DNA from: Bacillota bacterium
GTDB lineage: Bacteria > Bacillota > UBA994
DNA: 47,852 nt
Direction: 5' to 3'
NCBI GenBank assembly: GCA_009773495.1
Contig: WSXW01000014.1
Location: 1,983-49,834 of the forward strand
Shown: positions 1 through 43,662 of the stretch, one piece after another
Layout: every line of letters starts with the position of its first letter
How positions within the stretch are numbered: position 1 is the first letter of the stretch
Made by a program: the position numbers and the translations under genes
Notes under the pieces: generated by a model
The model's database searches: none
What the model was told of the DNA's origin: nothing
Seen by the model: only the letters and a program-made list of their open reading frames with translations

Positions 1-82
1 TTTTCGATAATTTCTCTTCCAAAGTCATGCCAAACTATATAGCTCCCTCTACTGTGTAATCTAACTTTGAACATCGTTTTCG

Positions 83-177
83 CCACTTTTTTCGCCAAAC
101 TCTAGAACTTAAAATCTCCTTCTACTAGTCCTACGCAAATGAGAACACTGTTTTTTACCACCTTTTTTCGCAAAACT
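83..177. repeat. Pair of about 20-bp direct repeats near tRNA scar
   Basis: Two copies of a near-identical motif lie at 83-102 and 158-177. Both have the form CCAC followed by a T6 run and then TTCGCCAAACT or TTCGCAAAACT, in the same orientation and 75 bp apart. They sit 190-290 bp from the truncated tRNA-Leu. Closely spaced direct repeats beside an att core are the usual form of integrase arm-binding sites. That role is an inference from position; no integrase gene is visible in the window. Confidence 0.45.
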
Positions 178-369
178 ATTATCACCCTCGTATACGGCAT
201 ATTTGACACACATGACCAAGGATATCGCTCAATGCGTACCATTCTAAATAACACTTGACTGAGGGATACGGCTACTGTATTATCAAGATAATGGGAACTG
301 AATATCAAGTGGAGTTGTTTGAGGGATGTTGATGGTGCTGAACCTTGATATATCAATGGTTTTGCATTA

Positions 370-422
370 CTTAGGATCTAGCGCCTTACGGCGTGGGGGT
401 TCGACTCCCCCTTCTCGCACCA
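370..422 (+). tRNA. Truncated tRNA-Leu(UAG) 3' half; probable att site
   Basis: The sequence reads as the 3' part of a class II tRNA: anticodon loop CTTAGGA with TAG at 372-374, 3' anticodon stem TCTAG, variable-arm stem CGCC/GGCG, T arm GGGGG-TTCGACT-CCCCC, acceptor strand TTCTCGC, discriminator A419 and encoded CCA (420-422). The matching 5' half (acceptor GCGAGAA, D arm, CTAGA stem) is absent from positions 1-369, so this cannot be a functional tRNA by itself. The match begins at the anticodon loop. Many tyrosine integrases recombine there and leave a 3' fragment at the distal end of the element. A terminator follows at 443-490. Confidence 0.8.
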
Positions 423-442
423 TTTTAACATCACTAATGCCA

Positions 443-490
443 AAATAAAGCAGAAGAGTTTGCCCTTGGGCAAGCTCTTCTGCTTTATTT
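443..490. terminator. Bidirectional intrinsic terminator
   Basis: A very long stem runs from 443-465 to 468-490 (AAATAAAGCAGAAGAG paired with CTCTTCTGCTTTATTT, plus a GC-rich tip). It has A-rich and T-rich flanks on the two sides, so it can work in both directions. It would end the original tRNA-Leu transcript on the plus strand and the lipoprotein transcript on the minus strand. Confidence 0.8.
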
Positions 491-495
491 GTTCG

Positions 496-1356
496 CTACT
501 TTCCTTTTTTCCACTGTTCTTTTTGTTCTGCAAAAATTATGTCAAACTCCTCAAGCTTAACCCGACCACCAAATGTCCTGATCAATATGTCCATAGCATA
601 GTCATCTCTTTCAATGTACCAACTGCCGTCTGGGCTCTTTCGCAGGGTTAAGTCGTGAGGTTCGTGATCGTTGTAATAATCTGGCTTCTCGTTGGTACCG
701 ATCAGTAGGACTAGCCCCGAGTAAAGCCCGCGCACTTGTACTGCCTCACTGTCCTCATGTAGGAGAGAAACCTCTATATCGGGCGAGTACCAAGACATAC
801 CCCCAGCCCCTGAGGTAAAATGCACGATCAGATACTTTATCCTCAGAGTCTCATAAGCATGCGTGTAGGCTGATACAGGGCAGTCGGCGTTAAAGTACGG
901 CTCGATCAGTTCAGACCTTTCCTGCACAATGGCTTCCATCTGCGCCATCAAGTAGCTCTTGGCAAATAGCATAGGGTTGTGCAGAGCTTCGTCAGGTACT
1001 ACCGGAGTTGTCTTCGCAAAAATCGCTCTGATTGTTAACGGCTCTGACACAACGGCACTTGTTGTGGTGGAGTTTCCCGCCACAGACCCGTCCCATCGTT
1101 CAAATCTGTACCCTAGCGTTGGCTGAACTGTGAAGTTAACCTTGGTGCCTTTGATATATTCGGTCTCTATGGGATCCACGGTGACAGTTCCCCTGCCCTC
1201 GACCTCGAGCTTCACGGTAAATTTGGGCGCAGGATTATTACACCCCAGGAGCCCTAAAGTTACTGCTGCCAACATCAACAAGGTCACAGCTATCTTATTA
1301 GAAAACGCTACGTGGATTATATATACTCCTCCTGCCTCTTTGCTCATATAATGCAT
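496..1356 (-). CDS. Lipoprotein with divergent InlB-like beta-repeat
   Basis: This is a predicted exported lipoprotein of up to 286 residues. A hydrophobic segment ending in the lipobox LGLLGC puts the lipidated cysteine near residue 39. The next 70 residues (VEGRGTVTVDP ... GYRFERWDG ... IRAIFA) have the form of the divergent InlB/Listeria-Bacteroides beta repeat. The remaining 150 residues are an unrecognised domain. The start is unclear. A perfect AGGAGGAG lies inside the frame at 1326-1333 with only ATA or ATC codons 5-9 bases downstream, while the two upstream ATG codons (1356, 1347) have no ribosome site. A decayed copy of the C-terminal domain lies just upstream, at 1531-1795. The function is unknown; surface binding is a guess. 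Confidence 0.75.
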   Translation of the reverse strand: MHYMSKEAGGVYIIHVAFSNKIAVTLLMLAAVTLGLLGCNNPAPKFTVKLEVEGRGTVTVDPIETEYIKGTKVNFTVQPTLGYRFERWDGSVAGNSTTTSAVVSEPLTIRAIFAKTTPVVPDEALHNPMLFAKSYLMAQMEAIVQERSELIEPYFNADCPVSAYTHAYETLRIKYLIVHFTSGAGGMSWYSPDIEVSLLHEDSEAVQVRGLYSGLVLLIGTNEKPDYYNDHEPHDLTLRKSPDGSWYIERDDYAMDILIRTFGGRVKLEEFDIIFAEQKEQWKKGK

Positions 1357-1530: not shown

Positions 1531-1795
1531 TTATGAGCACTGATGTAAAGGTCTGTCCAAGTACGAACGCCTACAGGGGCATTGTCGACTATTTTGGTAA
1601 TTATCATCGCGTGACCCCTCGTTATTATACAATTCTGGTTCTTCCTTGCTACCTTTCCATTGCACTAGCCCCGAGTAAAGCCCGCGCACTTGTACTGCCT
1701 TTCTGTCCTCATGTATAAGCGTAACCTCAATATCGGGCGAGTACCAAGTACCCCCAGCCTCTGAGGTAAAATGCACGATCAGATACTCTACCCTT
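1531..1795 (-). pseudogene. Decayed partial copy of the adjacent lipoprotein gene
   Basis: The minus-strand frame from 1776 carries TSEAGGTWYSPDIEV, HEDRKAVQVRGLYSGLVQW and ELYNNEG. These match TSGAGGMSWYSPDIEV, HEDSEAVQVRGLYSGLV and DYYNDHE in the C-terminal domain of the lipoprotein encoded at 496-1356. Nucleotide similarity starts abruptly near 1795, a few bases from the stop codon of the next gene. It fades into an out-of-frame tail below about 1600. There is no start codon, signal peptide or beta-repeat domain, so this is a 5'-truncated and frameshifted duplicate. The intact copy lies downstream of it on the same strand. Confidence 0.75.
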
Positions 1796-1798
1796 GCG

Positions 1799-2911
1799 TT
1801 AAATTAACACTAGGTTAGCTAATGGTAGCGCAATCTGCTCTCCATCATCAAGCTCTAGCAGAGCTACCTTGTACATCAGCTCACTAGGCGCAAGATGTAG
1901 ATCGTCAGGGAGCGCTACAATGCGGCCTGCCTTCCCAAAGTGCGGATTTCTTATAATACGAACGTTCGCTCCAACCTGTAACGCCGTTGTTCCTGCCTGG
2001 CTTTCGTCTGGCGTATCAAGGTCGCTAGGAACGATGATCTCCGGGTGGATTACTCCAGAGCGAATATGAGTGGTGCCGTTAATAGAGGCGGTGTTGCCCT
2101 GCAGCGAGCTTAGGAGTGAGAATGTTTTGTCGGACATGGCAATCTGACCTATGCCTTCAGTGATAATTACGCTCAGGCTAATATTCTCCTGCCCAGTTAT
2201 AGTTAAGCCAATATCGAACCCCAGGAAATCTCCCAGTTCTATATCATTAATTCCACCAGTTATGATCCCGACTACTCCGAGGCGCTGAGCTTTCTGTAAG
2301 GCACCCAGAGTCACTAAGGAGCCGCCTACGATGATTTTGCCTGTCATATCAGCGGTGATCCTATCGCTGTCTAATACCTCTGCTGGGGAGCCCACAGCAA
2401 CGTGCAACAGGCCATGGCGTTCACCACCTACACCCATGATACCTTGCACGAAGGCTGCGGTGGTTTCTATGACAGCCCCTTCATGAGGAATTAGTTCAGC
2501 TACCCGCCCATGGATATGGGCGTAGGTCCAAAATGGGGCCGGATGGCTACGCAAAACGACTACACCGGTGTGGGGGGAGAGAGATTCAATAGTGCCGTCA
2601 ATAGGCGAAGGCACAATCTGTTGCCCTAGGCCAAAAAAGGTTTTAATTGAGGCTAGTGCTTCACCTTTTTTAACTGTGTCCCCTACTCGTTTGATAATGA
2701 CCGGTTCGACTTGGTGGGCCTCCAAAGCTAATTTGTTGGCAATATTCACAGGAACAGAATACCCAGGGACCTCCCCGTAAGCAATTTGTGTCTCAGGAGA
2801 GACAGTGTCACCCACTTTAACAAGTACGTCACCAGGCAGGGGCAATCTTCGTACCTTCCGGACAAGACAGTTAGGTGTGATACTTAAGCCTAACATATTG
2901 GTATTGTTCAT
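1799..2911 (-). CDS. Barrel-sandwich/KOW-containing protein, partner of MutL-like ATPase
   Basis: This 370-residue soluble protein has no assigned function. The N-terminal third has two stretches typical of lipoyl/RnfC-type barrel-sandwich folds: PGDVLVKVGDTV near residue 27 and VGDTVKKGEALASI near 76, the second followed by SPIDGTIESLS. The middle contains glycine-rich segments (GVVGIITGGINDIELGDFLG). Near residue 315 a KOW-like motif, GANVRIIRNPHFGKAGRIVAL, is followed by a short beta-rich tail. Its start overlaps the upstream MutL-like gene by four bases (ATGA), so the two are probably made together. No lipoylation-type DKA/DKV lysine motif is obvious, so it may act as a scaffold rather than a carrier. 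Confidence 0.75.
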   Translation of the reverse strand: MNNTNMLGLSITPNCLVRKVRRLPLPGDVLVKVGDTVSPETQIAYGEVPGYSVPVNIANKLALEAHQVEPVIIKRVGDTVKKGEALASIKTFFGLGQQIVPSPIDGTIESLSPHTGVVVLRSHPAPFWTYAHIHGRVAELIPHEGAVIETTAAFVQGIMGVGGERHGLLHVAVGSPAEVLDSDRITADMTGKIIVGGSLVTLGALQKAQRLGVVGIITGGINDIELGDFLGFDIGLTITGQENISLSVIITEGIGQIAMSDKTFSLLSSLQGNTASINGTTHIRSGVIHPEIIVPSDLDTPDESQAGTTALQVGANVRIIRNPHFGKAGRIVALPDDLHLAPSELMYKVALLELDDGEQIALPLANLVLI

Positions 2912-4659
2912 TGTCTGTCGCTCTCTTTGGAGAGTGGGTAGGCATTTAGCGCCTCATACCAAGTATGAACGTCGTTATGGTTTAGGTTCCCACGGGTGTC
3001 GACTACTATGCCACACAGGCCGCTGACCAGTTCTGTGGTTAAACTTCGACCGGGGCCTTTGCCGACATTAAAGTGTTTGCTAGGTTTGATTGTGGCTCGG
3101 TAAATCCCCTGAGGTATGTCAAGACGAGTAAGGGAACCCACCGAGATGGCAAACTGCTCAGTACCTTTCTCCGTGTGTAGTGCTATTTCTACACATGGTT
3201 CGCCGCTCTCGCCATCTCCAACCGGTGCAATGGCGCTGCCTAGGTAAGCCAGGCACTCGTTGTAGAATACTTCGCCGGCTGCCTCCCTGTTAAGCGTTGA
3301 TAACATGCCTAGGTGGGAAGCGGTAGAGTACTGATCAATGGCCAGAGTTGTCACGCCTTCGGGCCTGATGGCATCGAGTAGTATTAGCAGGGCCTGGTCA
3401 TAACGTGGCGCCTGCGCAAATATAGCACCTAACCCGATGAGCAAGTCTAAATCCATAAGACTAGCTAGCGAGTCGCTAGATAGAGACTGATCGAATATAT
3501 GACCAACATCCCTAGCTCTTCGCACACCACGCAAGCCCACGACAGAACCTTTATGCTGTTCAAATGCTAGGCGTACAACCTCTTTGGCCACTGCGTGTTC
3601 GAGCAGCAGTTCATTAAGCTCATACGCCACTGTGGTTTGGCGAAGCATCTTGTTGCGCAGTCTGTTGCGCATCTCCCCCTCTTCCATAGAAAAAGGCAAC
3701 CACCTTGCTATTTTCTTATATCCTGCTTCTTTCAAGGAGTTGCTGATTGATGTTCCCAAGCCGAGATCCCCGCTTACTGTGCGAATAAGCTTACTCTTAA
3801 AGACCGAGTAAACATCGGTCGTAGCATCTCCTATGTTAATACCTAACACTGTCTGTTTAAACCGTTCGGCGATGTCTTCAATTACATATCCGATAGCACC
3901 CTGTGTTGGCAGTATGGGTGCGGAGGTTAAGGCGGCAAGTTTTTCATAGCCCGGCGCATGGGCCACTACATGCTCCAAAAAACGCCTGTGGATTTCGCGC
4001 CCAGCAGGCTCCAACACCTCTACTTCTAGCACAGGTCGTACATTGTCCACGAAGAAAAGGCAAGCCCTATTTTCAAGAATCTTACTAACCTGTTCTCTGG
4101 CTGCGATATTACCGGCGAAAATCACCGGAAGGTCAGGACGTAGCTTTGCAGATGCTATCTGTTCGGTGAGTTCTAGTACATTGTCTATATTGCCGTCGTC
4201 GATGCCACCCGAAAGCAGTACTGCGTCGGGGCGTAGCTCTCGCATGCGTTGCACCTTTTGTGGGGCAATACGCCCGTCGTCGATAGCGATTACATCCATA
4301 ACCATGGCGCCAGCTCCTAGCGCGGCGCGTTCGGCACTCTCAGCAGTCATAATGCGGACTAACCCGGCAACCATCATTTGCAGACCACCGCCGACTGAGC
4401 TCGTGCACAGAAACGCATCTACTCCCTGAAGTCCACCCTGCTTATCTATAAAGGTTTTACCGGTAGACTCTTCGATGTGCCGGATGGCGTTAAATAAGCC
4501 AACAGTAACGTCTTCGTAGGGAGGCTCGGTAGTGGTCGGCGCTTCTCCACGTCCCATAAGGCTATAGGTATCGGCATGCTCTTCGATAAGAATTACGCTG
4601 GTACCAGTGGTACCGCAGTCCGCAATTAAAAACGACTGGTATAGGTTGGAACTTTGCAT
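2908..4659 (-). CDS. MutL/GlmL family ASKHA ATPase
   Basis: This 583-residue protein belongs to the MutL (GlmL) family, named for the reading frame between the glutamate mutase subunit genes; it is not the mismatch-repair MutL. ATPase motifs are visible: phosphate-1 loop IADCGTTGTSVIL at residues 12-24 and phosphate-2 loop GINIGDATTDVYS near 273-285. The family-typical SSVGGGLQMMVAGLV, TAESAERAALGAGA and DAVLLSGGIDDGN segments lie in between. Relatives are usually linked with adenosylcobalamin-dependent glutamate mutase, but no mutase S or E subunit gene is in this window. At 583 residues it is longer than the usual roughly 450-480 and carries a C-terminal extension of 100 or more residues. 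It is translationally coupled to the downstream KOW-type gene. Confidence 0.85.
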   Translation of the reverse strand: MQSSNLYQSFLIADCGTTGTSVILIEEHADTYSLMGRGEAPTTTEPPYEDVTVGLFNAIRHIEESTGKTFIDKQGGLQGVDAFLCTSSVGGGLQMMVAGLVRIMTAESAERAALGAGAMVMDVIAIDDGRIAPQKVQRMRELRPDAVLLSGGIDDGNIDNVLELTEQIASAKLRPDLPVIFAGNIAAREQVSKILENRACLFFVDNVRPVLEVEVLEPAGREIHRRFLEHVVAHAPGYEKLAALTSAPILPTQGAIGYVIEDIAERFKQTVLGINIGDATTDVYSVFKSKLIRTVSGDLGLGTSISNSLKEAGYKKIARWLPFSMEEGEMRNRLRNKMLRQTTVAYELNELLLEHAVAKEVVRLAFEQHKGSVVGLRGVRRARDVGHIFDQSLSSDSLASLMDLDLLIGLGAIFAQAPRYDQALLILLDAIRPEGVTTLAIDQYSTASHLGMLSTLNREAAGEVFYNECLAYLGSAIAPVGDGESGEPCVEIALHTEKGTEQFAISVGSLTRLDIPQGIYRATIKPSKHFNVGKGPGRSLTTELVSGLCGIVVDTRGNLNHNDVHTWYEALNAYPLSKESDRQ

Positions 4660-4756: not shown

Positions 4757-5482
4757 TTAGATAAAGAGCAGCGTGCTAAGCAGTACGGAGGCTAGGTTGC
4801 CTACGCCATGCGCGATAATGCAGGGTGCCAGTGAGCCAGTTTTTTCGTAGAGTAGAGCAAAACCTACGCCAGCTAATGTTGCGAAAACTGTTAGGAATCC
4901 AAAGCCGTGCAGGATTCCAAAGAAAAGGCTTGAATAGATAATTGCGGGCTTCGCTCCGTAGCGTTTGCGCAATAAGGCATGTATGAGGCCACGGTAGATA
5001 ATCTCTTCAACAATAGGTGCGATAATCCCGATTTGCAAAGCGACAATGGCCCACTCTAGGTTGATGTGACCTATATCTGGTAAGGGATTGTTACCAGATA
5101 TATCTTCGAGGGGCATAAACATAGTGATGATAATCGTAACAACGATAGTTAAAACTGTGGGCAAAACTTTTATCGCTACTCCCCACACTACTCCAGTTTT
5201 AAAGTGGGCCTTAAAATCGCTCCATCTAAGTCCAAAGTACTCATAGCTAGGCCAGAAACAGAAGTGCCGATATGCCAACAGCACAATCAACATGGCCCCC
5301 CAGTCGGCTATCCTTAAACGTATGGGACTGTTCATTTTGTGGGGTACCGGCAGAAGGAGGAATACCAAAATATACAGGCCAAATAGCTTCAGAATATCTC
5401 TCAAGCCCCAATGGACCTCTCGTTGGTCTAGAGGGGAGCTACCCGTTAGGGAGAAATGCTGTAAAATGGCAGGCTTGATCAT
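4757..5482 (-). CDS. CPBP (CAAX/Abi) family intramembrane metalloprotease
   Basis: This 241-residue polytopic membrane protein has the signature motifs of the CPBP glutamic-type intramembrane protease family. EEIIYRGLIHALLRKR is near residue 157 (EExxxR), FFGILHGFGF near 187 (FxxxH), and a third motif, IIAHGVGN, near the C terminus. About six hydrophobic segments are visible. Bacterial members include bacteriocin-immunity and regulated-proteolysis proteins, and the substrate here cannot be inferred. It lies 15 bases after ndk and may be cotranscribed with it. An AAGGATTGGAGA sequence serves as ribosome site before the ATG. Confidence 0.9.
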   Translation of the reverse strand: MIKPAILQHFSLTGSSPLDQREVHWGLRDILKLFGLYILVFLLLPVPHKMNSPIRLRIADWGAMLIVLLAYRHFCFWPSYEYFGLRWSDFKAHFKTGVVWGVAIKVLPTVLTIVVTIIITMFMPLEDISGNNPLPDIGHINLEWAIVALQIGIIAPIVEEIIYRGLIHALLRKRYGAKPAIIYSSLFFGILHGFGFLTVFATLAGVGFALLYEKTGSLAPCIIAHGVGNLASVLLSTLLFI

Positions 5483-5497
5483 TCTCCAATCCTTCTC

Positions 5498-5953
5498 CTA
5501 ATCTTCTCTAAATATCCAGTCTAGGAGCGCAAGTTTGCTCGATATGAGCTCAGAATTGTTGAAATAGAGTCGTATTTCTTTCTCCGCAGCCTCAACAGAG
5601 TCGCTGGCGTGGACAATATTGCGCCCCTTAGTCAACCCTAAGTCCCCTCTGATGGTACCTGGCGCAGCCTCTGCAGGGTCGGTCTTGCCAAGAATACTCC
5701 GTAGTACTGTCACAGAGCGGTGCCCTTGCACACATAAGGCCACAATGGGTCCACTAGTTATGTACTCGACTAGTTTTGAGTAGAAGGGTTTGCTAACATG
5801 TTCGGCGTAATGCTGTGCAGCTAGCTCCGGGGATAATACAAGCATTTTTAGGCCCACAATTTGCAGGCCTTTGCGTTCTATACGGTTTATCACTTCACCA
5901 ATGAGATATCGTTGCACACCATCAGGCTTAATTAAGCATAGGGTTCTTTCCAT
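5498..5953 (-). CDS. ndk: Nucleoside diphosphate kinase
   Basis: NDK transfers the gamma phosphate of ATP to NDPs through a phosphohistidine. The protein begins [15 protein letters not shown] and carries the catalytic histidine in [12 protein letters not shown] near residue 115, with the expected GTIRGDLG before it. The 151-residue length is normal. The ATG at 5953 is chosen because AAAGGAGG lies 8 bases upstream; an in-frame extension to 5980 would have no ribosome site and would precede the conserved N terminus. It is followed closely by the CPBP protease gene. Confidence 0.96.
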
Positions 5954-6001
5954 GGGGCGACCTCCTTTTAGAGTAATCACTAACGCAAAGAGCGGTCACG
6001 A

Positions 6002-6025
6002 GGAACAAGGAACTAAGAACTAGCA
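6002..6025. repeat. Degenerate GGAACTAA-type short tandem units
   Basis: Three imperfect units of about 8 bases (GGAACAA, GGAACTAA, GAACTAG) lie between ndk and the M42 peptidase terminator. A closely similar array (GAACTAG, GAACTGG, GAACTAA) occurs at 34860-34882, also intergenic. The function is unknown. Confidence 0.5.
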
Positions 6026-6057
6026 ACGCACACGATGTGCTATGAGCAATGTGCGCG

Positions 6058-6095
6058 AAGAGAAGCCCTCTGCACAGTAGCAGAAGGCTTCTCTT
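6058..6095 (-). terminator. Hairpin after the M42 peptidase gene
   Basis: AAGAGAAGCC at 6058-6067 pairs with GGCTTCTCTT at 6086-6095, and TCTGC/GCAGA extends the stem inside around an ACAGTA loop. It begins five bases past the minus-strand stop codon. The T tract that follows on the minus strand is poor, so termination is likely but not certain. Confidence 0.6.
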
Positions 6096-6099
6096 GGCG

Positions 6100-7170
6100 T
6101 TAGTCGTTGTTTAGCTCACGCACTGTCTTTTCGTCGAGGCGCTTGATGAGTTCAAGGACGAGCTTAACAGCATTATCATAATCATCGCGGTGAATGATGC
6201 CCGCGTGGCTATGGATATAGCGAGTGGGCACAGCAATACACAGGCTCGGCACACCGCGACCATGGACATGAATGCGGCCCGCGTCGGTGCCGCCTCCAGC
6301 CATATGGTCAAACTGCAAGGGTATACCTGCATCTTTGGCGGTATCTACTACAAAGTCTCTCAACTTAACGTGAGGAATCATCGACGCATCATAAAGGAGT
6401 ACGACTGGGCCCTTGCCAAGCTTTTCGTTGGCCTTCTCGGCACCTGGTGTATCACCAGCGATCCCAACCTCGAGTGCAAACCCGATATCGGGGTCTACGA
6501 CATGAGAGCTAGTTGTAGCGCCACGCAGGCCGACTTCTTCCTGTACGGTACCTACGCCATATACGGTGTTGGGATGATCAACGCCTTGTAGAGCTTTAAT
6601 GACTTCAATAAATAGGGCACAACCAAGACGATCGTCCCAAGCCTTGGCCATGAGGAACTTCTCATTCTTCAGGACTGTGAAGGGACTATCGGGGATTATC
6701 GGGTCTCCCGGGCGAATACCGAATACATCGGTAGCCTCAGTTTCATCAGCGGCACCAACGTCGATGAACATGGTGTCTTTTTCCACGACCTTGTTGCGTT
6801 CCTCGGGGGTGAGAATATGGGGTGGTTTACTGCCGATGATGCCGGTTACGTCACCCTTAGTGGTCTTAATAATCACGCGTTGGGCTAACATGACCTGACT
6901 CCACCAGCCACCTAGAGTTTGGAATTTAATAAAACCCTCTTTGGTTACCTTAGTGACCATAAAGCCAATCTCGTCCATATGGCCGGCGATCATAATGCGG
7001 GGCCTGTCAGATGTGCCAGACTTTTTGCAAATGATGCTACCGATGCGATCGGTGGTCATTTCTGCGTAGCCTTCCATGTAAGAACGGATCACCTTGCGCA
7101 CCTCGCTCTCGTAACCCGAGACCCCGGGTGCATCGGTTATCTCTTTGAGCAGTTTTGATGTTGCATCCAT
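6100..7170 (-). CDS. M42 family metallo-aminopeptidase
   Basis: This cytoplasmic di-metal aminopeptidase of the M42 (glutamyl aminopeptidase/FrvX/YsdC) family has 356 residues, the normal length. Metal ligands and catalytic positions are visible: [11 protein letters not shown] near 63-73, [13 protein letters not shown] near 175, the catalytic pair in [11 protein letters not shown] near 211, and a late histidine in HSHAGIIH. The family forms large tetrahedral dodecamers that trim peptides released by other proteases. The ATG has a clean AGGAGG eight bases upstream. It appears to be monocistronic, with a terminator behind it (6058-6095) and another (7300-7325) separating it from the upstream operon. 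Confidence 0.93.
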
Positions 7171-7299
7171 ACGTTGACCTCCTTAGTTGGGAAATTTTTT
7201 AGACAGTCGCTGAGGAGAAGAGGTGTGTCCCCTTTCCTTTATATTATTCCTTTACAGCCTATCTCCTGCCTAAGTTTATCTAAAACTACTCAGACGAAG

Positions 7300-7325
7300 A
7301 AAAAACCTTCCGGTTTAAGGAAGGC
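7300..7325 (-). terminator. Intrinsic terminator of SRPBCC-aminotransferase operon
   Basis: Read on the minus strand, CCTTCC and GGAAGG pair around TTAAACC and are followed by TTTTTT. It lies about 35 bases past the stop codon of the SRPBCC gene. Confidence 0.85.
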
Positions 7326-7359
7326 TTCGTAGAGGAGCTTGTCAGCCCCTCACAAATAT

Positions 7360-7803
7360 TTAGTATACGCTAGACTCACAAATCTTCTTAATGTCGGCCA
7401 GCATGCCTTCGCAGTTTTCGCGGAGTTTTTTTCTCAGGAGTGGGTTTAACAGCGGCGCAATCATCGGGATACCGAACTCAAATTCCGCCGTGAGCAGAAT
7501 ATGTACTCCGTCTGGTGTCTCGCTCAGCTGCCATTTGCCCTCAAACTTTTTTAGATCACCGCTCAATTGAGTATACTCGATGCGATATTGTTCAGGATAG
7601 AAAACATCGCGTTCACGCCAGGCGATCACCCGGCCATCAATATTAGTGACCCACTTGCTTATGGTAGTATTCTCGTGAAGCTCCTCTATCTCCACGCTGG
7701 TCAGATTTGGCATGAATTTTGGGTAGCTGGCCATGTCTGATACTATGTCCCAAATCCTCTTGATATCGCTCTTAACCAGTGTTGTTGCTTCAACGTGTGG
7801 CAT
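7360..7803 (-). CDS. SRPBCC (START-like, COQ10/aromatase type) protein
   Basis: This 147-residue protein has the pattern of the polyketide cyclase/COQ10 branch of the SRPBCC superfamily. It opens with a strand leading into DIKRIWDIVSDMASYPKFMPNL, followed by alternating beta strands (EYTQLSGDLKKFEGKW) and a long C-terminal helix. Such proteins bind small hydrophobic ligands in a deep cavity, and the ligand cannot be read from sequence. The ATG is preceded by GAGGAGG. It lies 14 bases after the class III aminotransferase gene, so the pair probably forms one transcript. Confidence 0.85.
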   Translation of the reverse strand: MPHVEATTLVKSDIKRIWDIVSDMASYPKFMPNLTSVEIEELHENTTISKWVTNIDGRVIAWRERDVFYPEQYRIEYTQLSGDLKKFEGKWQLSETPDGVHILLTAEFEFGIPMIAPLLNPLLRKKLRENCEGMLADIKKICESSVY

Positions 7804-7817
7804 TATATCTACCTCCT

Positions 7818-9080
7818 CTATAGATCTGTTTTGAGTTCTTGGGCAGCATTGAAGATCTTCTCAAAAGCCGCTAGGGCTCTACTTACTTCTTCCTCTGTGA
7901 TGACAAGCGGTGGTTCAATGCGGATTACCTTGGGATTATTAAGCGTATAAGCGGCGAGAATCTTGTTGTTCACCATTTCGGAAATGGTAAAACCTGCATA
8001 TCCGTCGTCTGTGAATTCAATGCCAATGATTAAGCCCATGCCTCTAACTTCGGCAATGAAGTCTGGGTACTGTGCCTGCCACTTGTGTAAGGCCTTGAGA
8101 AATTGGTCGCCGCGCTCTACTGCCTTTTGTGGTAAGTTCTCTTCAAGCATGACTTTGATAGCGGCTATTGCAGCAGCGCAAGCGAGAGGATTTCCTCCAA
8201 ATGTGGAAGTATGTAAGAATGGTGCGTCAGCGAAGCCTTCCCACAAATGCTGGCGGGCTACAATTGCGCCTATGGGCATGATACCGCCACCCAGAGCTTT
8301 AGCTAAACACATAATGTCAGGTACAACTCCCTCATGATCGACACCAAAAACCTTACCTGTTCTACCCATGCCGGTCTGCACTTCATCTACAATGAGCAGA
8401 ATATCCTTGCGGTCGCAAATCTCGCGCAAAGCTTTAAGATAGCCCTTAGGTGGTACGATAACTCCGCCCTCACCCTGGATAGGCTCTACAATGACTGCAG
8501 CTGTATCCTCATTGATAGCGCGTTCGATAGCTTCCGCATCGCCGTAAGGAACATGAGTAAAACCTGGAATAAGTGGTAAAAACGGTGTGCGAAAAATCTC
8601 CCGCCCGGTAGCGCTAAGCGCACCTAGGGACTTCCCATGAAAAGCACCCATGGTAGAAATGATGCCAGTTTTCTTCTGGGAGAGCCGGGCCAACTTAAGA
8701 GCCGCTTCGACTGCTTCGGTGCCGCTGTTGCATAGGAACGAATACTGTAGGTCGCCGGGGGTTATTTGGGCCAATAGCTCAGATAAATCGGCCATGGGCT
8801 TATTCAGTAGGAGTTTCGTTGGCATTGCCATGCGGTCTAACTGTTCCTTTACCGCGGCAATAATTTTTGGGTGAGAATGGCCTGCGCCGTACATGCCATA
8901 CCCACCGAGAAGATCAAGGTACTGGTCCCCCTTGAGGTCGGTTACAATGGAACCTTTGGACTCCCACTCTATGGTGGATAATCCCATGTAGCGGAAGAGC
9001 CTCGCCATACCCGGGTTCACGTACTTTTCGTACTTCTCCATAGTTTGTTCAACGATTAGTTGAACGTCTTGCTCTAGCAT
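7818..9080 (-). CDS. Class III PLP aminotransferase (putrescine/ornithine type)
   Basis: This 420-residue fold-type I aminotransferase has the expected features. FLCNSGTEAVEAALKLAR is the phosphate-binding region, GAFHGKSLGALSATG follows it, IVEPIQGEGGVI and LLIVDEVQTGMGRTGK hold the cofactor aspartate, and the Schiff-base lysine is in CLAKALGGG near residue 260. The overall shape is that of bacterial putrescine and acetylornithine/4-aminobutyrate aminotransferases. No arginine or polyamine pathway genes are nearby to decide between these substrates. The ATG follows GGAGGGGAAAGT. It is transcribed together with the SRPBCC gene downstream. Confidence 0.88.
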   Translation of the reverse strand: MLEQDVQLIVEQTMEKYEKYVNPGMARLFRYMGLSTIEWESKGSIVTDLKGDQYLDLLGGYGMYGAGHSHPKIIAAVKEQLDRMAMPTKLLLNKPMADLSELLAQITPGDLQYSFLCNSGTEAVEAALKLARLSQKKTGIISTMGAFHGKSLGALSATGREIFRTPFLPLIPGFTHVPYGDAEAIERAINEDTAAVIVEPIQGEGGVIVPPKGYLKALREICDRKDILLIVDEVQTGMGRTGKVFGVDHEGVVPDIMCLAKALGGGIMPIGAIVARQHLWEGFADAPFLHTSTFGGNPLACAAAIAAIKVMLEENLPQKAVERGDQFLKALHKWQAQYPDFIAEVRGMGLIIGIEFTDDGYAGFTISEMVNNKILAAYTLNNPKVIRIEPPLVITEEEVSRALAAFEKIFNAAQELKTDL

Positions 9081-9233
9081 ACTTTCCCCTCCCTATGTAG
9101 TCTATACAGGTAAAATTGTACACCAAAAGGTGCACAAAGAAAAGCAGAGCAGCATAGTGGAGTCTGCTAAGGAGAACGGGCCTCCCCTACGCATACCTAT
9201 AGTGTGTCCGAAGTGGGAATATGATGTAATAAA

Positions 9234-9265
9234 ACAAAAAACCAACTTTACAAGTTGGTTTTCGT
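9234..9265 (-). terminator. Terminator after tRNA-Pro
   Basis: AAAACCAACTT and AAGTTGGTTTT pair around TTACA, with a T run on the minus side. It lies 16 bases beyond the tRNA-Pro 3' end. Confidence 0.85.
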
Positions 9266-9279
9266 TAGAGTCTGAGAAA

Positions 9280-9357
9280 TGGTCGGGCTGACAGGACTTG
9301 AACCTGCGGCCTCCTGCACCCCAAGCAGGCGCGCTAGCCAAACTGCGCTACAGCCCG
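9280..9357 (-). tRNA. tRNA-Pro(GGG)
   Basis: The minus strand gives a complete cloverleaf. The acceptor pair is CGGGCTG/CAGCCCG, the D arm GCGCAGTTTGGCTAGCGC, and the anticodon stem CCTGC/GCAGG closes loop TTGGGGT (anticodon GGG). The T arm is GCAGG-TTCAAGT-CCTGT, followed by discriminator A and encoded CCA. Total length with CCA is 78 bases. The extra first-loop sequence and encoded CCA are normal for Bacillota. A consensus promoter lies directly upstream and a terminator directly downstream. Confidence 0.97.
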
Positions 9358-42774: not shown

Positions 42775-43662
42775 CTATGCTCGCGGGTGAGCTTTATCAT
42801 AGACCTCTCTTAAGCGAGATTTAGTCACGTGAGTATAGATTTGTGTGGTGCTAATATCTGCATGACCCAACATTTCCTGAACAGCACGTAAATCTGCACC
42901 GTTCTCTAAGAGATGTGTGGCAAAGGAGTGCCTTAGAGTATGCGGAGTAATGTTGGCATCGATACCTGACTCACGCGCATATTTCTTTAGTAGTTTCCAA
43001 AACCCTTGGCGAGTCAGTTGGCGCCCATGGTGGTTAACAAATAAAGAGCGCATTTCGCGCGACCGAACTAACTTTGGCCGGCCAGAGTTAAAGTATGCAA
43101 CTACAGCCTTAATAGCCACAGAACCTAGGGGTACAATCCGTTCTTTATTACCTTTCCCTAAGCAACGTATGAAACCGGCATCAAGATTAACATCGGCCAG
43201 ATTCAATGTGACAAGCTCTGTTACCCTAATGCCTGTCGCGTAAAGAACTTCAAACATGGCGCGGTCTCTAAGCCCCCCAGGGGATACAGCATCTGGGCGG
43301 TACAAGAGAGATTCAACCTGTTGCAGGCTGAGCACACTAGGCAGCTTCTTTTCGACCTTGGGAGAGTCTAGCTCTGAAGCGGGGTCTAACTCTAGCTTTC
43401 CTTCATGGTGAAGAAACCTGAAAAAAGAGCGAATGGAAGCTAAGCTACGTGAGACTGTAGCTGTGGATTTTCCCTGCTTCTTGAGACCATCCAAGTAGTT
43501 CAGTATGTGATTGCGGTCGAGCTCTGCCCAGCTAGTTACACGACGGAGTTTTATGTACACAGCAAACTGCCTTAGATCTCGGCCATAAGACTCTAAAGTG
43601 TTAGCAGCTAGCCCTCTTTCCACCCCCAGGTAATCGAGATATCCCTCAATGAGCAGATCCAT
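42775..43662 (-). CDS. xerD: Tyrosine recombinase XerD
   Basis: XerD resolves chromosome dimers at dif with XerC. ATG 43662 gives 295 residues, the standard length. The N-terminal core-binding domain starts LIEGYLDYLGVERGLA. Catalytic residues are visible: Arg in TGIRVTELV near 146, HTLRHSFATH near 242, GHADISTTQ, and the nucleophile tyrosine in IYTHVTKSRL near 275. The ribosome site AAAGGGA is weak. It precedes deoB and pdp as in most clostridia, so it is chromosomal and not tied to the tRNA-Leu scar. Confidence 0.95.
   Translation of the reverse strand: MDLLIEGYLDYLGVERGLAANTLESYGRDLRQFAVYIKLRRVTSWAELDRNHILNYLDGLKKQGKSTATVSRSLASIRSFFRFLHHEGKLELDPASELDSPKVEKKLPSVLSLQQVESLLYRPDAVSPGGLRDRAMFEVLYATGIRVTELVTLNLADVNLDAGFIRCLGKGNKERIVPLGSVAIKAVVAYFNSGRPKLVRSREMRSLFVNHHGRQLTRQGFWKLLKKYARESGIDANITPHTLRHSFATHLLENGADLRAVQEMLGHADISTTQIYTHVTKSRLREVYDKAHPRA

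Follow-up and report, generated by a model that had tools for sequence, protein, structure and literature searches.

Islands that target tRNA genes are marked by a restored tRNA gene together with a displaced fragment of it, as described in Islander, where 3760 of 3919 candidate islands have a 3' fragment and the accompanying table gives 2083 as anticodon-centred (PMC4383910). The locus described here is an ordinary, well-known arrangement and a common known configuration. It lies in the window, that is, the whole stretch of 47,852 nucleotides that was analysed (G000:C59:1983-49834), to the left of which 1,982 nt of the contig C59 remain. At positions 369-422 lies, very probably, the attR core of a prophage-like element whose target was the tRNA-Leu(UAG) gene at the end of a conserved tRNA cluster. 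This pins down both the target gene and the precise right-hand limit of a phage-like island. The two sides of this boundary are as follows.

Positions 369 to 422, plus strand: displaced 3' half of tRNA-Leu(UAG), very probably the attR core, with 78-87% identity to intact tRNA-Leu(TAG) of relatives in the same family.
Positions 1 to 368, unstranded: right end of the very probably integrated prophage-like element, in place of the tRNA-Leu 5' half and the upstream tRNA cluster, with no similarity to a tRNA 5' half.

The segment 369-422 (ACTTAGGATCTAGCGCC...TTCTCGCACCA) runs from the anticodon loop through CCA and comprises the loop CTTAGGA (370-376), the 3' anticodon stem, the variable arm, the T arm, the 3' strand of the acceptor and CCA (420-422). 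It was matched in 24 of the 41 genomes searched (23 of the 40 relatives besides the genome itself; best match 87%, E 1.6e-12), and the matched places tested in the relatives were mostly intact tRNA-Leu(TAG) genes according to ARAGORN. At 369-422 itself, neither ARAGORN nor Rfam called a whole tRNA. Identity with the tRNAs of the relatives starts at A 369, the last base of the 5' anticodon stem: the eight relatives listed all read GACTTAGGATCTAG, against TACTTAGGATCTAG in the window, and the preceding base is G in all eight and T in the window. Leftward of that T, a comparison of positions 1-368 with the tRNA 5' half gave no resemblance to tRNA-Leu, and the match thus ends cleanly at the 5' edge of the anticodon loop. 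The sequence-only reading, which had recognised a tRNA-Leu(UAG) 3' half through CCA without its 5' half, was right on this point; its start at 370 is off by one. Searches for the 5' half in the window and in 242 kb of sequence from the own genome were negative. A second 53-nt core was likewise not found in the own genome, and no exact core was found in IMG/VR. Thirty-five nucleotides of 369-422 occur exactly in 24 genome_contigs stretches from Staphylococcus, Mammaliicoccus, Peribacillus and Vallitalea, as expected because the tRNA is conserved. Another tRNA-Leu gene of the same genome was rejected as the source of the fragment, since the isoacceptors present are CAA, CAG, GAG and UAA only.

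The relatives provide the empty site. In six genomes of the same family (G001, G002, G004, G005, G006 and G007), an intact tRNA-Leu(UAG) lies directly beside orthologues of the right flank of the window. It is the last gene of a cluster Pro(UGG)-Glu(UUC)-Thr(UGU)-Gln(UUG)-Lys(UUU)-Leu(UAG), which is complete in five of the six; in G005 the contig is cut off within the cluster, after Gln. The place of positions 1-368 is occupied in the relatives by tRNA-Lys and the 5' half of tRNA-Leu. As the intact tRNA-Leu of the relatives stands beside the same flank, the native chromosome starts at 369 in the window; the DNA to the left of this base took the place of the 5' half and of the cluster. The chromosomal side contains the following features.

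Positions 443 to 490, plus strand: hairpin just 3' of the tRNA fragment, with 23-bp arms, 96% complementary (-35.5 kcal/mol, z -8.2).
Positions 496 to 1356, minus strand: first gene past the scar, a lipoprotein-like ORF with an InlB B-repeat domain (Pfam PF18998, E 8.3e-9).
Positions 4757 to 9357, minus strand: chromosomal flank syntenic with the empty site, with orthologues beside intact tRNA-Leu(TAG) in six genomes; it comprises a CAAX protease, NDK (5498-5980), further ORFs (6100-7170, 7360-7803 and 7818-9080) and tRNA-Pro(GGG) (9280-9357).

The hairpin probably terminated transcription of the original tRNA operon; in several relatives, hairpin-like runs followed by T runs are seen by eye after tRNA-Leu. 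The CAAX protease and tRNA-Pro(GGG) are present in some of the loci of the six relatives, tRNA-Pro(GGG) being found further along in four of the loci fetched. The lipoprotein-like ORF had no match in the loci of the relatives compared, and the ORF at 1531-1776, the ORF at 1799-2911 and a MutL-type gene at 2908-4659 are not at the corresponding place there. Therefore, about 4.3 kb past the scar are lineage-specific. The ORF at 1531-1776 (minus strand) is a partial duplicate of the lipoprotein-like ORF, with 54% identity.

We then considered the nature of the element. It is visible over about 2.35 kb only, and its GC content is 35-37% in the bins covering C59:1001-2000, against about 45-52% past the core. 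The sole clear phage gene family in this segment is a holin (C59:258-704, minus strand; PF05105, E 7.6e-10; phrog_199), relatives of which were found neither in IMG/VR nor in phage records. A zinc-ribbon gene is present as two partial copies in tandem, at C59:1279-1578 and 1720-1953. Both remnants have about 70% DNA identity to the same internal part of a 339-aa gene on the IMG/VR phage contig UViG_3300009120_000006; phage records and 14 other genomes of the class yielded no relatives. In addition, a probable twister-P1 ribozyme lies at L011:868-927 (minus strand) in G000:C59, 1.06 kb left of window base 1 and 164 nt upstream of the holin gene on the same strand. The match to RF03160 covers the full model at 41.6 bits (E 3.9e-7), which is below the gathering score of 67.2, and by eye pseudoknot T1 is apparently GGC:GCC instead of GGG:CCC. 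Certain phage genes are commonly associated with twister ribozymes (PMC4604425).

The element is probably a prophage and not an island of another kind. A non-phage island (an ICE, a plasmid-derived element or a satellite) using the same integration mechanism is unlikely. It would accord with the holin being the only clear phage gene family, with the absence of a PF04860 portal protein from the assembly, and with the large VirD4/FtsK-like ATPase seen by eye on the IMG/VR contig that carries the related zinc-ribbon gene. However, the holin and the relatives of the zinc-ribbon gene are phage-associated, and the probable twister ribozyme is situated just upstream of the holin.

Within this prophage-like segment, the sequence-only reading had taken two direct repeats of 20 bp (83-102 and 158-177), just inside the core, for probable integrase arm-type sites. 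Sites of this type are short repeats, within about 200 bp of the core, to which the N-domain of the integrase binds. The repeats are real but were taken out of register, and are better placed as follows.

Positions 77 to 101, unstranded: copy of the TTTTCGCCACTTTTTTCGCCAAA repeat, the first of the supposed arm sites; in the own genome the motif is confined to C59:1175-2171.
Positions 153 to 177, unstranded: diverged copy of the TTTTCGCCACTTTTTTCGCCAAA repeat, the second supposed arm site, with 80% identity over 25 nt to 77-101.

A weak third copy (68%) is found at 1-25. The family is more than a pair, since seven copies lie within C59:1175-2171, the majority outside the window; the 9-mer TTTTCGCCA occurs seven times in this interval, against 0.07 expected, and the repeat 20-mer occurs nowhere else in the own genome. 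The interpretation as arm-type sites is not supported: the motif is scattered across 1 kb, reaching a distance of about 1.2 kb from the core, alongside the decayed copies of the phage zinc-ribbon gene. The copies surround an exact 99-nt repeat and a 61-nt tandem, both belonging to the decayed gene copies, and read on the minus strand the repeat gives a K-rich peptide, AKKVAK, in one frame. Judging from the sequence, tandem duplication of phage coding sequence would explain the repeats better than integrase arms.

The integrase end, the intact tRNA-Leu and four of the other five tRNAs of the cluster are missing from the assembly. A 20-N scaffold gap immediately precedes window base 1, and the "window edge" at which the scar had been placed is therefore an assembly feature. 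An exact 99-nt repeat flanks this gap (L011:1620-1718 and 1983-2081, the latter being window 1-99), and the two sides may not be joined precisely at window base 1. Contig ends share runs of about 99 nt, which suggests an assembly k-mer of about 99. The first 99 nt of C59 are a repeat present in several copies, with which contigs C69, C26 and C18 also begin; its copy in C45 adjoins an IstA-like ORF fragment (by eye), and the repeat looks by eye like an IS21-type end. The orthologue of the gene that lies beyond the cluster in the relatives occupies C7:532-1281, with 531 nt of C7 before it, and the first 97 nt of C7 are another multi-copy repeat. The assembly breaks at C59 and C7 because both contigs start in multi-copy repeats.

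A tRNA search of the assembly found no tRNA for Leu(UAG), Lys(UUU), Gln(UUG), Thr(UGU) or Pro(UGG). The Lys(UUU), Gln(UUG), Thr(UGU) and Leu(UAG) tRNAs are needed for A-ending codons. As several of the missing tRNAs are thus indispensable, their absence reflects an assembly gap and not a real loss. We infer that the unassembled stretch from C7 to C59 must contain the cluster along with the intact tRNA-Leu and the integrase end. The absence of five isoacceptor tRNAs from a genome that is 97.8% complete is thereby explained, the cluster at the target site being in the assembly gap.

One must also ask whether the fragment could be a decayed remnant left by an IS-mediated deletion that took away the cluster and the 5' half, site-specific integration having played no part. 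Such a deletion would fit the multi-copy repeats at the starts of C59 and C7 and the IS21-type neighbour of the C45 copy, but it is most improbable: the break at 369 falls in the anticodon loop and not at an IS end, the IS-like end at C59:1-99 is 2.3 kb away, and a true loss of tRNAs needed for A-ending codons is implausible. Group I introns of tRNAs insert in the anticodon loop, and the sequence-only reading had itself raised a complete tRNA-Leu with such an intron as the contrary case; a whole tRNA-Leu(UAG) interrupted there, with the bases left of 369 as intron, would account for the position of the break and for an assembly with no other Leu(UAG) gene, but it is scarcely credible and largely refuted, since C59:1-2600 gave no group I match in Rfam at E<=1, the 5' half is absent from the 1,982 nt left of the window and from the 242 kb of own-genome loci, the other tRNAs of the cluster are missing too with phage genes in their place, and in the alignment the relatives have no intron in tRNA-Leu.

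We looked for the integrase in the rest of the genome. Matches to PF00589 were found on C5, C17, C21, C51, C57 and C72, none of them linkable to the scar, and the one match in the window (C59:44799-45314, window 42817-43332) is far from it. Neither an intact tRNA-Leu(UAG) nor an integrase gene linked to the scar was found in the assembly. Three integrases at contig ends were rejected as the missing attL end, each being without the Leu core: that of C17 flanks tRNA-Thr(CGT), that at the end of C57 runs into an aspartokinase gene, and that at the end of C21 runs into an IS91-like gene (by eye). The tyrosine integrase of C17, beside tRNA-Thr(CGT), is broken into two frames (G000:C17:223-859 and 925-999), and this locus is possibly a second tRNA-targeted element in the same genome.

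We hold with high confidence that site-specific integration took place here. What was observed comprises the 3' fragment with the precise base at which it begins, six relatives with an empty site, phage genes on the element side, and the post-cluster gene at the start of C7. The proposal that this is the attR of a tyrosine-recombinase element in tRNA-Leu(UAG), with its body to the left, is borne out by the six empty sites, by the phage genes leftward and by the loss of the 5' half exactly at the anticodon loop. In the proposed scenario, strand exchange by a tyrosine recombinase borne by the element would take place in the anticodon loop, the partners being the tRNA gene as attB and, as attP, a copy of the tRNA-Leu 3' half on the element. 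The 5' half of the host gene would be joined to the 3' half of the element, giving an intact tRNA at attL, and the original 3' half, with CCA and the terminator, would be displaced to the far end, at the scar in the window. Since that end is missing from the assembly, the chemistry of the crossover is inferred, as are the integrase and the intact tRNA at attL. It is very unlikely that the only tRNA-Leu(UAG) of the host, and perhaps the neighbouring tRNAs for A-ending codons, are now completed by or carried on the element; if the only tRNA-Leu(UAG) did depend on it, the host would rely on a prophage for decoding.

Three known systems allow a comparison. The IMG/VR contig UViG_3300009120_000006 (L135, L136 and L137) carries a full-length 339-aa zinc-ribbon gene, the centre of which has 60% protein and about 70% DNA identity to the tandem fragments of C59. 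There the full-length gene adjoins a tyrosine recombinase, whereas C59 has partial copies only. This contig gave no holin match, in a search run without a positive control, lacks the tRNA-Leu core (best 29/54) and has no TTTTCGCCA cluster, only two isolated matches on the reverse strand. It also contains two RNAs above the gathering score, a pistol ribozyme (L137:8215-8282, plus strand, 49.2 bits) and a skipping-rope RNA (L136:8657-8759, minus strand, 39.2 bits). The IntF prophages of O. oeni likewise target a tRNA-Leu and duplicate its 3' end, but their exchange region is the 13-bp 3' end and not the anticodon loop (PMC8074189). Unlike the Islander islands, the present island is seen by half, since the end with the intact tRNA and the integrase is not assembled here; like the anticodon-loop, 3'-fragment islands of that description, it carries at its far end a fragment from the anticodon loop to CCA, and its empty site is found in relatives (PMC4383910).
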